From: Bacteroidales bacterium
GTDB taxonomy: Bacteria > Bacteroidota > Bacteroidia > Bacteroidales > FEN-979
Length of the DNA: 55,260 bases
Reading direction: 5' to 3'
Assembly: GCA_017882335.1 (NCBI GenBank)
Contig: JADGPR010000013.1
Location: 1 to 55,260 of the forward strand
A program made the position numbers and the translations under genes. The notes beneath the pieces were generated by a model. It saw nothing but the letters and a program-made list of their open reading frames with translations. It was not told where the DNA came from and did no database searches. Position 1 is the first letter of the stretch, and every line of letters starts with the position of its first letter. Shown one piece after another: positions 35,359 through 40,384 of the stretch.

Positions 35359-35826
35359 TTAAAATCTGAAATGGGAGAATGCCTTGTTGGCTTCGGCCAT
35401 TCGGTGTGTATCTTCTTTCCGTTTGTATGCAGCTCCTTCTTCTTTGTATGCGGCCACGATTTCTGCAGCAAGCTTTTGGCCCATGCTCTTCTCGTGCCGT
35501 TTCCTTGAAAATGAAACAAGCGCTTTCATCCCGATGGACATCTTTCTGCCCGGGCGAATCTCGGAAGGGATCTGAAAAGTAGCTCCACCGATACGGCGGC
35601 TTCTGACTTCCACCGAAGGAGTAACATTTGCAAGTGCTTTTTTCCAGACGTCAAGACCTTCTTCTTTTGTCTTTTCCGAAACAATATCGATCGCCTCATA
35701 AAAAACATCATAAGCAATGTTTTTCTTTCCCTGTTCCATGAGATTGTTCACAAACTTTGTGACCAGAGTATCTCCGTATTTGGGATCCGGAAGTATCGCT
35801 CTTTTCTTGGGTTTTGCTTTTCTCAT
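35359..35826 (-). CDS. rpsG: 30S ribosomal protein S7
   Basis: A 155-residue S7 that organises the head of the small subunit. It contains [40 protein letters not shown] and the end [14 protein letters not shown]. In E. coli S7 represses the str operon by binding between rpsL and rpsG; the gap here is about 70 bases. Confidence 0.97.
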
Positions 35827-35898: not shown

Positions 35899-36282
35899 TT
35901 AAGCTTTCTTTTCTTTCGGCCTTTTTGCTCCGTATTTTGATCTCCTTTGCCTTCTGCCTTCCACACCGGAAGTATCCAGTGCGCCGCGGATGATATGGTA
36001 CCTTACACCGGGGAGGTCCTTCACCCTGCCGCCACGGATCATCACGATCGAGTGTTCCTGCAGGTTGTGGCCTTCACCGGGAATGTATGCATTGACTTCT
36101 TTCCCATTGGTCAGACGAACCCTGGCAACTTTACGCATGGCAGAATTCGGTTTCTTCGGAGTGGTGGTGTAAACCCTCACGCAAACACCCCTGCGCTGCG
36201 GACAGGAATCCAATGCCGGCGACTTGCTTTTATCCGTCAGCTTGTGTCTTCCCTTACGAACCAATTGATTTATTGTAGGCAT
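35899..36282 (-). CDS. rpsL: 30S ribosomal protein S12
   Basis: A 127-residue S12, a decoding-centre protein and the classical streptomycin target. It starts [20 protein letters not shown] and has the sensitive-type [18 protein letters not shown] loop and [19 protein letters not shown]. It is the first gene of the str-S10-spc-alpha series. Its upstream region holds two promoter boxes and a structured element (36301-36610). Confidence 0.98.
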
Positions 36283-36300
36283 ATTTTACTGATTAATGTT

Positions 36301-36323
36301 AACAAAAACCCCATTTTTTGGGG
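36301..36323 (-). terminator. Short hairpin with T-tract just before rpsL (terminator or attenuator)
   Basis: On the minus strand CCCCA, a five-A loop and TGGGG (36309-36323) are followed by TTTTTGTT. The stem is short (5 bp) but GC-rich. It would end transcripts from the upstream promoter 20 bases before the rpsL start, so it could be the 3' end of a small RNA or a regulated attenuator. Confidence 0.4.
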
Positions 36324-36327
36324 AGTG

Positions 36328-36335
36328 CAAAGTTA
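36328..36335 (-). promoter_or_regulatory. Second promoter box for rpsL
   Basis: Minus-strand TAACTTTG matches TAnnTTTG. Transcription would start near 36321, inside the hairpin at 36309-36323, so this shorter transcript could not form that hairpin. No clear -33 element. Confidence 0.4.
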
Positions 36336-36429
36336 TAAAATAATTGAATCCGAAAAATATTTCAGAAAAATATTCTTCAAATTCGCTGTTTTACTGTTAG
36401 TTGGGGGATAATTGCAAAGAAATTCAAGG

Positions 36430-36577
36430 AAGGATAAATATCCTAGACAAACCGCCAGAGTGGGTATCCGGACATTTTTGGCGCTGCCCGGTCGAAACCT
36501 ATTAGTGTCTTAATTTATCAGGTTCCCTAGTATTTCCTTATGATCCCTTCAAAAGAACGCTATCGCTTTTTTGAGGG
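36430..36577 (-). ncRNA. Candidate structured RNA or leader upstream of rpsL, with H-type pseudoknot
   Basis: On the minus strand a 5' hairpin (36545-36577) is followed by a long-range stem (36527-36539 with 36430-36446), an inner hairpin (36520-36526 with 36494-36500) and a 7-bp stem (36485-36491 with 36468-36474). The loop of that last stem (TGGCG on the plus strand at 36479-36483) can pair with CGCCA at 36453-36457, making an H-type pseudoknot. In two stems a G-U pair exists only in the minus-strand RNA; on the plus strand it would be an A-C mismatch. I recognise no known riboswitch or RNA family. It may be a ribosomal-protein leader or a free small RNA. Confidence 0.45.
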
Positions 36578-36579
36578 TG

Positions 36580-36610
36580 CAAAAGTACAACTTATTTTTG
36601 ATTGACCAAG
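36580..36610 (-). promoter_or_regulatory. Promoter of the rpsL leader/small RNA
   Basis: On the minus strand CTTG at 36607-36610, a 19-base spacer and TACTTTTG at 36580-36587 match the Bacteroidota consensus well. Transcription would begin at about 36573, inside the first hairpin's 5' arm or a few bases before it, roughly 290 bases ahead of rpsL. Confidence 0.55.
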
Positions 36611-36681
36611 AAAATTATCAATTATTTTACAAGGATGGTCCCAATGGCTAAATCTTGTTTTATTATGAAGCATTGCTGTTA

Positions 36682-38769
36682 TCACCTTTTCTTCTCGCTC
36701 AATTTCCTGTAAGCAATGTCCCGGTTGGAATATGCCATAGTATAATTCGGGTCAATTTCAATTGTAGAAGTATAATCATCTATTGCCTTGTCCCATTGCC
36801 TGAGGGTCCCATAAGCGATACCACGATTGTAATAGGTTCTGGCAGATTTCGGATCAATTTGGATTGAGATTGAGTAATCGGCTATTGCTTTGTCCCACTG
36901 TCCTAGATAATAGTAGGCATTGCCACGATTGTAATAGGCTGTTGCATATTGTGGGGAAAGCTCGAGTGTCTTGGAGAAATCTGTTATAGATTTGTCCCAC
37001 TGTTTAAGATTCCCATAAGCGATACCACGGTAGTTAAATGCGTCGGAATATTTCGGATCAATCTCTATCGCCTTGGATTGATCGGCAATCGATTTGTTCC
37101 ACTGTCCAATGTTACCGTATGCAATGCCACGGTTATAATAGGCTATGGTATATTTCGGGTCTAGCTCGATCGCCTTGGAGTCATCGGTTAATGCCTTTAC
37201 CCACTGCCCAAGATTACCATAAGCAATACCACGATTGGAATATGCCTTAGTGAAATTTGGGTCAATCTCAATTGCCTTTGAGTAATCGGCTATTGCCTTG
37301 TCCCACTGCCCGAGATTCCCGTAAGCAACACCACGGTTGATATAGGCATCTAAATCATTCGGGTAAACACCAATTGCTCTTGAATAATCGGCAATCGATT
37401 TATCCCACTGTCCAAGATAATCGTAAACCATGCCAAGGTTATAAAGTGATCTTGGTTTATTCGGAGATTTTGACACAACATCACTCCAAAGTGTAAGATC
37501 ATCCCTCCATACTTTATTCCTTTCATAGGTCAGATATGAATTTGAACCTATTATGATCACGAAGATAATAATTGCAATGTGTTTATATTTATTCCAGAGT
37601 AAAACGTATATGCCTGAGCTAAAGATCAGAAAAAACCCAAATGAAGGAAGATATGTTCGGTGTTCGAAAATCACATCCTTTATCGGAATGAAGCTCGATT
37701 CGATTGATAGCGTAAGAAAGAACCAGAAAATGCCAAAAGAAATGAACCTGTATCTTTTAAAAGAGAATATTGCCAGAATAATCAATGATATAAGTACTAC
37801 GAAACTTAGCAGGGTTCTTATCTCAAAAAAAGTATTTGAGATCGGGAAATCATAGTCTAAATTCTGATTTATTGGCAGGAACAAAAGCTGGATATATTTG
37901 ACAATGACACTGAACTGAGTGAAAAGATAATTAAGTGGGGTTACAGTATAGGTATTCATATATGACGGTGGGATCGATTTGAAAATGCTTAATGACAACC
38001 TTAAAGTAATGATAATGATTACACCTAAAAATGCTCCTATAAGCAGGATAACACGATAATCCTTAAAATTTATTGAAAGTTTCTTTGTCCTTAAAAAGAA
38101 TAATTCGAAGAGAACTATGGCAAAAGGAAGCGTGAAGGCATTTTCCTTTGTAAGCATAGCCAATCCAGCAGAAATCAATGAACTTGTAAACAGCAGGGTT
38201 TTAACTATATTTCCTTTGTTTGATAATCGGGCTTTAACATAAAGCACCAGAGAAAGGAGATAGAACATGGCAACCATGGAGGCAAGCCGTTGAACGATAT
38301 AGGTGACAGATTGTGTTGCAAGAGGGTGTGAAACAAAAAGTAAAGCTGTCAGAAAGGCTAAAACTTTTTTATTCCTGGCAATTGGTTGATTTTTCAGAAC
38401 TGGTGAAGAAAAGATCAGTAAGGTAAGCCACCAAACCAGGCAGGCATTGATAAGATGAATAATTAGGTTTACAAGATGCCAATACCATACATCAAGCTGG
38501 TTGAAATGGTAATTAAGTGCAAAGGTCAAAGTACCGACAGGACGAGATGGATAGTAGTTCCACCATGCTTTCACATCTGCTAAATTCCGAATCTTAATAT
38601 TATAAACAATACGGAGAAGATCGTCAAAATGGAATGAACAGTAAAACGAATTGGAATAAATTATGATTCCCAGTAGGAATATCAGAGACAGTCCAACCAC
38701 GTTGGAATATTTGTTTTTTTTTACCTGTTTTAGCGGTTTCTGATATTGCGAGCGATCATCCTTTTTCAT
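36682..38769 (-). CDS. GT-C-like membrane protein with C-terminal TPR repeats (TMTC-like)
   Basis: A 695-residue protein in two halves. Residues 1 to about 430 have roughly 10-12 hydrophobic helices and an early acidic pair (Asp49-Asp50 in CSFHFDDLLRI) in the first extracytoplasmic loop, where GT-C glycosyltransferases keep their catalytic acid. Residues about 450-695 hold seven full 34-residue TPR units and one partial, each with NRGIAYGNLGQWDKAI-like sequence. The same architecture occurs in eukaryotic TMTC O-mannosyltransferases. Transfer of a sugar from a lipid carrier is inferred, not shown. It starts with ATGA overlap to the methyltransferase gene. The TPR-coding DNA is itself a 102-bp tandem repeat. 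Confidence 0.8.
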   Translation of the reverse strand: MKKDDRSQYQKPLKQVKKNKYSNVVGLSLIFLLGIIIYSNSFYCSFHFDDLLRIVYNIKIRNLADVKAWWNYYPSRPVGTLTFALNYHFNQLDVWYWHLVNLIIHLINACLVWWLTLLIFSSPVLKNQPIARNKKVLAFLTALLFVSHPLATQSVTYIVQRLASMVAMFYLLSLVLYVKARLSNKGNIVKTLLFTSSLISAGLAMLTKENAFTLPFAIVLFELFFLRTKKLSINFKDYRVILLIGAFLGVIIIITLRLSLSIFKSIPPSYMNTYTVTPLNYLFTQFSVIVKYIQLLFLPINQNLDYDFPISNTFFEIRTLLSFVVLISLIILAIFSFKRYRFISFGIFWFFLTLSIESSFIPIKDVIFEHRTYLPSFGFFLIFSSGIYVLLWNKYKHIAIIIFVIIIGSNSYLTYERNKVWRDDLTLWSDVVSKSPNKPRSLYNLGMVYDYLGQWDKSIADYSRAIGVYPNDLDAYINRGVAYGNLGQWDKAIADYSKAIEIDPNFTKAYSNRGIAYGNLGQWVKALTDDSKAIELDPKYTIAYYNRGIAYGNIGQWNKSIADQSKAIEIDPKYSDAFNYRGIAYGNLKQWDKSITDFSKTLELSPQYATAYYNRGNAYYYLGQWDKAIADYSISIQIDPKSARTYYNRGIAYGTLRQWDKAIDDYTSTIEIDPNYTMAYSNRDIAYRKLSEKKR
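36720..37440 (-). repeat. 102-bp tandem coding repeats (TPR array)
   Basis: About seven units of 102 bases encode near-identical TPR motifs; words such as CCATAAGCGATACCACG recur with few changes. High DNA-level identity suggests recent expansion or gene conversion among units. Confidence 0.75.
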
Positions 38770-39937: not shown

Positions 39938-40384
39938 ATGTCAAGTTACCGTCAGATTCTTTATCATTTGGTGTTCCGTACAAAAAATAGTCGGAAAACG
40001 ATTGTACCGGCCCATTCCAAAGAACTTTATGCCTATATTATGGGTATAATCAGAAACAAAAACAGCTTTCTTTACCGTATTAACGGAATGGAAGATCACC
40101 TGCATATTTTAAGTGATCTGCACCCTTCAATTGCTTTGGCTGATTATATGAGGGATATTAAAACATCATCTTCGATCTGGTTAAAACAATCAGGAAATTT
40201 TCCTGACTTTAACGGATGGGCAGAGGGATATGCAGCACTTACATATGGTTGGAAGGATAAGGAGATGATTGCTAACTACATTAAAAATCAACCTGAACAT
40301 CACAAGAAAGAATCGTTTGAAAATGAATTAAGGAGATTACTTGAAGAAAATGGAATCGAGGTGGATGAAAGGTATTTTCCATAG
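39938..40384 (+). CDS. REP-associated tyrosine transposase (IS200/IS605-like, RAYT)
   Basis: A 148-residue Y1-type single-strand DNA transposase. The HUH-like metal site is HLH at 54-56 and the probable catalytic tyrosine is Tyr114 in IANYIKNQ, with Gln118 following. LVFRTKN near the N terminus and GYAALTYG are typical. It is flanked by multi-hairpin modules (39839-39932 and 40391-40618), the hallmark of RAYT proteins, which are thought to spread or maintain REP sequences, usually as single-copy genes. The reading frame is intact. It is the only clear mobile-element gene in the window. Confidence 0.88.
   Translation: MSSYRQILYHLVFRTKNSRKTIVPAHSKELYAYIMGIIRNKNSFLYRINGMEDHLHILSDLHPSIALADYMRDIKTSSSIWLKQSGNFPDFNGWAEGYAALTYGWKDKEMIANYIKNQPEHHKKESFENELRRLLEENGIEVDERYFP

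Follow-up and report, generated by a model that had tools for sequence, protein, structure and literature searches.

A conserved pseudoknotted RNA before rpsL in many Bacteroidales, probably a leader of the str operon

In a Bacteroidales bacterium with a genome of 3.13 Mb, a conserved structured RNA lies upstream of rpsL on the minus strand, at positions 36578-36416 of the window (the whole stretch of DNA analysed here, 55,260 nucleotides), where it begins at a Bacteroidetes-type promoter. Judged by comparison of sequences, this element is more than a chance fold and is a conserved RNA in many Bacteroidales. It is predicted to form a closing stem (P1) and a hairpin (P2) whose loop pairs with a downstream segment to make an H-type pseudoknot. 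An earlier note on this DNA had proposed a structured RNA with a promoter and an H-type pseudoknot before rpsL, and this proposal is backed by the observed conservation, synteny, promoter motifs and covarying helices. The element is probably a 5' leader RNA of the str operon that serves as an autoregulatory target of S12 or S7.

The str locus and the elements of the fold

The str operon of this genome consists of rpsL, rpsG and fusA with subsequent ribosomal protein genes, all downstream of the element. The first gene of the operon, rpsL (S12), occupies positions 35899-36282 of the minus strand (Pfam Ribosom_S12_S23, E 2.6e-42), the second, rpsG (S7), occupies 35359-35826 of the same strand (Pfam Ribosomal_S7, E 2.7e-58), and the third product, after S12 and S7, is EF-G according to Pfam. 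Directly upstream of the distal promoter is an open reading frame of 695 aa (36682-38769, minus strand) rich in tetratricopeptide repeats (Pfam TPR_1, E 3.1e-69), and farther away an open reading frame of 148 aa (39938-40384, plus strand) matches an IS200-like transposase (Pfam Y1_Tnp, E 4.6e-24). A single-sequence fold of the window region gave z = -1.47, with 16 of 200 shuffles folding equally well or better; this is not significant, and the question of structure was therefore settled by comparison.

The promoter, 5' hairpin, closing stem, inner hairpin and 7-bp stem that the earlier note had listed are all present in the sequence, and all elements described here lie on the minus strand. The distal promoter (36580-36609), as read from the window sequence, consists of TTG, a 19-nt spacer and TACTTTTG, which is of the TAnnTTTG type deduced as the -7 element for Bacteroides fragilis (PMC7366714). 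It is followed by P0 (36545-36577), an imperfect hairpin that would form the 5' terminus of the distal transcript and that by eye is kept in the alignment of family f1. The closing stem P1 has its 5' arm at 36526-36539, supported by a partner-swap test with one sequence per family, and its 3' arm at 36416-36429, supported by the gapped form of that test together with pairing in the window, where 12 of 14 positions are paired (36539-36526 with 36429-36416). Pairing over 86 distinct sequences supports the two arms of P2, the 5' arm with the core GRAACCU at 36520-36526 and the 3' arm with the core AGGUUYC at 36494-36500. The P2 loop starts with GAYAA and carries the 5' strand of the order-wide pseudoknot, PK1 (NNRAGACN, 36506-36513, supported by the covariation tests), whose 3' strand lies at 36442-36449 and forms five contiguous pairs in the window and eight in the sibling locus L004. 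The near-invariant loop nucleotides are CCUGA and AGGUU. From 5' to 3', the sequence of parts is conserved: the distal promoter comes first, then the 5' arms of P1 and P2, the loop and the P2 3' arm, and finally a variable stretch (usually with the P3 hairpin), the PK1 3' strand and the P1 3' arm.

The variable hairpin P3, between P2 and the PK1 3' strand (36468-36491), has 7 bp in the window (36491-36485 with 36474-36468), and by eye its position is kept while its length and sequence vary. The G-U pairs that the earlier note had taken as a mark of minus-strand transcription are found in P1, in P2 and in this 7-bp stem. The pseudoknot of that note, termed PK2 here, pairs 36479-36483 with 36453-36457, and all five pairs are Watson-Crick in the window; by eye it is present in four of the five genus loci compared (L002-L006), with one compensated pair in L005. 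It is seen only in the genus, whereas the pseudoknot that extends through the order is PK1, a different pairing.

Between the motif and the second promoter, the window has an AT-rich inverted repeat of 17 bp with a 5-nt loop (36346-36384), which by eye is partly kept in the sibling loci L003-L005. The proximal rpsL promoter has the -7 element TAACTTTG at 36328-36335. At the predicted start of the proximal transcript, the window sequence forms a 5-bp GC hairpin followed by TTTTTG (36309-36323). This is the GC hairpin and T-tract that the earlier note had placed after the element, and it is present at 36323-36309 as described; since it stands just after the second promoter, it more likely marks where a second, short rpsL transcript starts than where the structured RNA ends.

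Conservation, synteny and covariation

Relatives of the element were sought by BLAST in the genomes of 100 relatives, where a lax limit gave some match in all 100, mostly short. The best 30 matches (E 9.5e-8 or better) all fall in the window's own family, and in all of these loci (L002-L031) rpsL is found just downstream. A covariance model, R1, was made from 25 core sequences of one family with the P1 and pseudoknot pairs, on the alignment A2, in which the placing of P1 is still wrong in five rows; the MAFFT alignments A1 and A3, in which P1 or a pseudoknot strand was misplaced, were set aside. The training loci of R1 had been found by BLAST with gene context unused, so that R1 serves as an independent test of synteny. 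Searched against 393 genomes of the order with an E limit of 0.1, R1 gave 89 matches in 86 genomes; 78 of these matches have rpsL downstream on the same strand, and the other 11, all at E 0.0018 or worse, do not. Outside the five training genomes, 73 of 84 matches precede rpsL on the same strand at E 0.1, and at E 0.0016 or better the count is 59 of 59 (64 of 64 with the training genomes included). From the end of the motif to rpsL, the distance in 95 leaders is 39-256 nt, with a median of 143.

A second model, R2, covers only the 38-nt P2 core, and was made from 86 sequences with the P2 pairs alone, such that it is blind to the pseudoknot. With an E limit of 0.001, R2 matched 92 of the same 393 order genomes, at 94 places; 83 of these lie before rpsL, namely every match that reached 33.3 bits (82 in all) and one at 32.2, and the 11 that do not scored 26.4-32.4 bits (one step behind these rpsL-context counts left out L116-L118, L120 and L191). 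The training loci of R2 had been preselected as preceding rpsL, so only the 11 misses and the five loci that R2 alone found (L176-L180), all of which precede rpsL, are independent, and the case for synteny rests on R1. Beyond the order, R2 was run on 395 class genomes and 247 phylum genomes, where the window itself gave the one strong score. The weak matches besides it, 14 in the class set and 7 in the phylum set with two shared, scored 22-28 bits, and these 19 were treated as chance, rpsL being absent from their loci.

The aligned carriers amount to 103 leaders, which the kinship labels of the search place in 29 families of the order. The main aligned set has 99 loci, 25 of them R1 training sequences, and excludes L032-L035 and L039, five of 30 loci from the R1 search, as duplicates of earlier places, as well as ten low scorers among 59 fetched loci (L104, L107, L111 and L114-L120). 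Counts on 95 leaders omit the four of the 99 loci that are not before rpsL (L096, L097, L112 and L113), and three low scorers that do precede rpsL (L107, L115 and L119) were added back for the pseudoknot and P1 tests. In 30 order genomes there was no R2 match near rpsL; 27 of these have a detectable rpsL, and an R2 scan of those 27 rpsL loci did not find the motif, while two Bacteroidales MAG contigs scanned alongside them scored 43.7 and 42.5 bits. The motif is thus dispensable in these 27 members of the order, which counts against a leader role. In five motif-less loci (L147, L150, L157, L160 and L162), all TAnnTTTG matches lie 125-162 nt before rpsL, and another long rpsL 5' UTR may therefore exist there.

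Covariation was assessed by a partner-swap test, in which the pairing of each loop with the downstream strand of its own locus is compared with its pairing with the strands of other species; the PK1 and P1 tests collapse identical loops or relatives, and phylogeny was handled by thinning to one sequence per family. For PK1, 78 distinct loops scored a mean of 15.41 with their own strands and 13.92 (sd 0.27) when permuted, and the largest of 10,000 permutations reached 15.05. With one random sequence from each of the 29 families, the mean z over 30 draws was 3.75 (2.87-4.65), as against 1.16 (0.00-2.27) for the reversed loop, a control that is slightly positive, and -0.08 for an upstream region. 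The signal of single loops is modest, the own partner being within the top 10% of swaps for 14% of the 78, and contiguous-helix searches of each sequence were often not significant individually. In 81 distinct cases, the third pair of PK1 is GC in 28, AU in 27, CG in 9, UG in 5, GU in 4 and UA in 2, and other pairs switch too, with the two outermost formed in just 67% and 62%, although in these counts the 3' window was chosen as the best, which favours pairing. When each loop was allowed its best window, the score was 13.04, compared with 11.66 for swapped loops (sd 0.23, highest of 1,000 12.36). Matches of R1 are mildly selected for pairing, as the model includes the pseudoknot pairs. In the loci that R2 alone found, PK1 pairing is clear in L176-L179 (GAGAC/GTCTC, AAGACT/AGTCTT, GGACAAG/CTTGTCC and GTGGACA/TGTCTGC, respectively) and weak in L180. 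By these comparisons of aligned leaders, PK1 covaries across 29 families.

For P1, the partner-swap test with gaps and one sequence per family gave a mean z of 3.61 (range 2.79-4.31, 12 draws), and the version without gaps a weak 1.89. P2 is paired in 98.0% of cells over 86 distinct sequences; three of its pairs are invariant, two have changes on one side and two on both sides, nine sequences having GC for AU at one pair and one having AU for GC at another. This covariation is weak, as the number of double changes is higher (13 cells compared with 10) when the pairing is displaced by two columns. RNAalifold on the family alignment A2 predicted P2 only.

Promoters and the role of the element

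In 94/95 leaders, a distal TAnnTTTG lies upstream of the motif at a distance of up to about 90 nt, compared with 6.3 (at most 15) in shuffled regions. After the motif, 64/95 leaders have a strict proximal TAnnTTTG (10.7 on average in shuffled regions, with a maximum of 20), and of the 65 strict proximal matches, 61 sit 50-65 nt from the rpsL start codon. The other 31 leaders comprise 13 with a relaxed match only and 18 with none, and the distance from core to start codon tends to be smaller where a proximal promoter is missing: it is 142-221 nt in the 18 leaders without a later promoter, and its median is 256 nt in the two-promoter group. Where the distal promoter is the only one, we infer transcription from it and read-through into rpsL, unless rpsL has a promoter of another type, and in leaders without a proximal promoter the element is expected, from this arrangement of motifs, to be part of the rpsL mRNA. 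In L015, L016, L018 and L031, the interval between motif and rpsL has no strict proximal promoter and instead has a hairpin before the start codon, the two strands of which change together (GGCGC/GCGCC in L018, TGACGC/GCGTCA in L015).

The alternative that survives best, which is nonetheless improbable, is that the element is a free-standing trans-acting small RNA that starts at the distal promoter and stops before the proximal one, and whose adjacency to rpsL would reflect inherited gene order. Such an RNA would fit the 64 leaders that have a second promoter motif after the element and the window's 17-bp inverted repeat between the two promoters, and also the terminator-like sites found in 15 of those 64 (5% in shuffles), which in 7/15 occur only further than 50 nt before rpsL. 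In the remaining 8/15, however, a site lies 25-48 nt from rpsL and is formed by the short hairpin that follows the proximal promoter, as in the window; none of the 31 leaders without a strict proximal promoter has a terminator-like site; and every one of the 64 strongest R1 matches mentioned above stands before rpsL. The earlier note had considered a free RNA of about 270 nt beside an autoregulatory leader, and this is less favoured, as all R1 matches up to E 0.0016 stand before rpsL, 18/95 leaders show no other rpsL promoter even when the pattern is relaxed, and the 31 leaders just mentioned have no terminator-like site.

In the leader reading, the transcript from the distal promoter would fold as a closing stem around the H-type pseudoknot, and an operon protein in excess over rRNA (S12 or S7, which are not separable here) would bind the pseudoknot. 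Binding would lower the translation or the transcript yield of the operon, a feedback whose direction and mechanism are proposed here; as no terminator is evident, an effect on translation or mRNA stability is more likely than attenuation. What counts against this reading is that the proximal promoter motifs in 64/95 leaders would bypass the sensor, since in about two thirds of leaders the second promoter would also make a short rpsL mRNA without it. One tentative extension is that promoter choice switches the sensor out, with distal mRNA being feedback-repressed and proximal mRNA feedback-free; it is possible, but less likely than the leader role itself, and if true, cells could pick feedback-controlled or feedback-free synthesis of the str operon, in a phylum whose ribosomes do without Shine-Dalgarno pairing.

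Another alternative, more doubtful than the small RNA, is a ligand-free element for 5' stability or processing of the str mRNA. The 5'-terminal hairpin after the distal promoter, kept by eye in family f1, and the short hairpin after the proximal promoter in eight leaders are both consistent with such a function, but the near-invariant loop nucleotides and a pseudoknot that covaries in 29 families exceed what a stability hairpin needs. Somewhat less likely again is a riboswitch-like element that would respond to a small molecule or to the translational state, and not to an operon protein; a compact H-type pseudoknot with strongly conserved nucleotides would suit it, yet strong matches occur before rpsL only, as ribosomal protein leaders would show, and no Rfam 15 family was matched. 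A chance structure in AT-rich intergenic DNA, with which the single-sequence z of -1.47 would agree, is already contradicted by compensatory change across 29 families and by the synteny of strong matches, and is very improbable.

If the leader reading is true, many Bacteroidales would have a regulator of a central ribosomal operon, and S12/S7 feedback outside E. coli would become directly testable. It would also be a new RNA-protein pair in bacteria whose ribosomes have been reported not to recognise Shine-Dalgarno sequences (PMC9976891). The compact model would also be of use for annotation of MAGs.

Relation to known RNA families and leaders

The earlier note had matched the element to no known RNA, and the searches agree: at the gathering score, Rfam 15 has no match in the window, a permissive search of 36250-36700 gave six matches, all at E 1.2 or worse, and 20 loci from relatives gave one tRNA and nothing else. 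An identity with 6S RNA (RF00013) was rejected, as it has no match in the window's own genome, while 5 of 14 control genomes do match, four of them over the cut-off. Mimicry of rRNA at the level of sequence was likewise rejected: compared with the 16S of three relatives (L170, L171 and L172), the core reached at best 15, 15 and 16 of 25, and in this sequence-only scan 97, 96 and 52 of 100 shuffles scored as well. With no 16S likeness beyond that of shuffles, rRNA mimicry lends the ligand no support and does not choose between S12 and S7. In the open-licence literature, subscription papers and supplements aside, no similar leader from Bacteroidota was found.

Leaders of rpsL in other bacteria have been predicted as attenuators in Listeria, Xanthomonas, Pseudomonas and Rickettsia (Naville and Gautheret, 2010; PMC2965389), where the authors describe the leader as multiform, with no globally conserved sequence or structure; the word "Bacteroidetes" is absent from the main text of that paper. 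Those leaders are like the element described here in that they lie upstream of rpsL and are thought to control the same operon. They differ in that they act through a terminator and antiterminator, whereas here there is a pseudoknot, and an identity with them was rejected on the scarcity of intrinsic terminators, terminator-like sites being found in 0/31 leaders without a strict proximal promoter and in 15/64 with one. Another example is the rpsL motif of Candidatus Pelagibacter ubique (Meyer et al., 2009; PMC2704228), likewise a conserved RNA before rpsL whose ligand is unknown, in which, by contrast, a bulged P1 leads into a three-stem junction and which is described from that organism and marine metagenomes only.

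In E. coli, the str operon is repressed by S7 (PMC10931766), and the feedback by an encoded ribosomal protein on the same operon is like that proposed here. The S7 site of E. coli, however, lies between rpsL and rpsG, as opposed to the position of this element before rpsL, and an identity of the two was rejected on location. Ribosomal protein leaders for L13, S4, S15 and S16 have been described in Bacteroidia and Flavobacteria (Eckert and Weinberg, 2020; PMC7247131), which are in the same phylum and are the same kind of regulator, but belong to different genes; none of the 20 motifs in Table 1 of that paper is for the S12 operon, and the entry "rpsl" in this table belongs to the row of the L13 operon. 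Based on its sequence conservation and predicted structure, the element before rpsL in Bacteroidales is probably a new ribosomal protein leader, and its fold differs from those of the rpsL leaders in the papers cited here.
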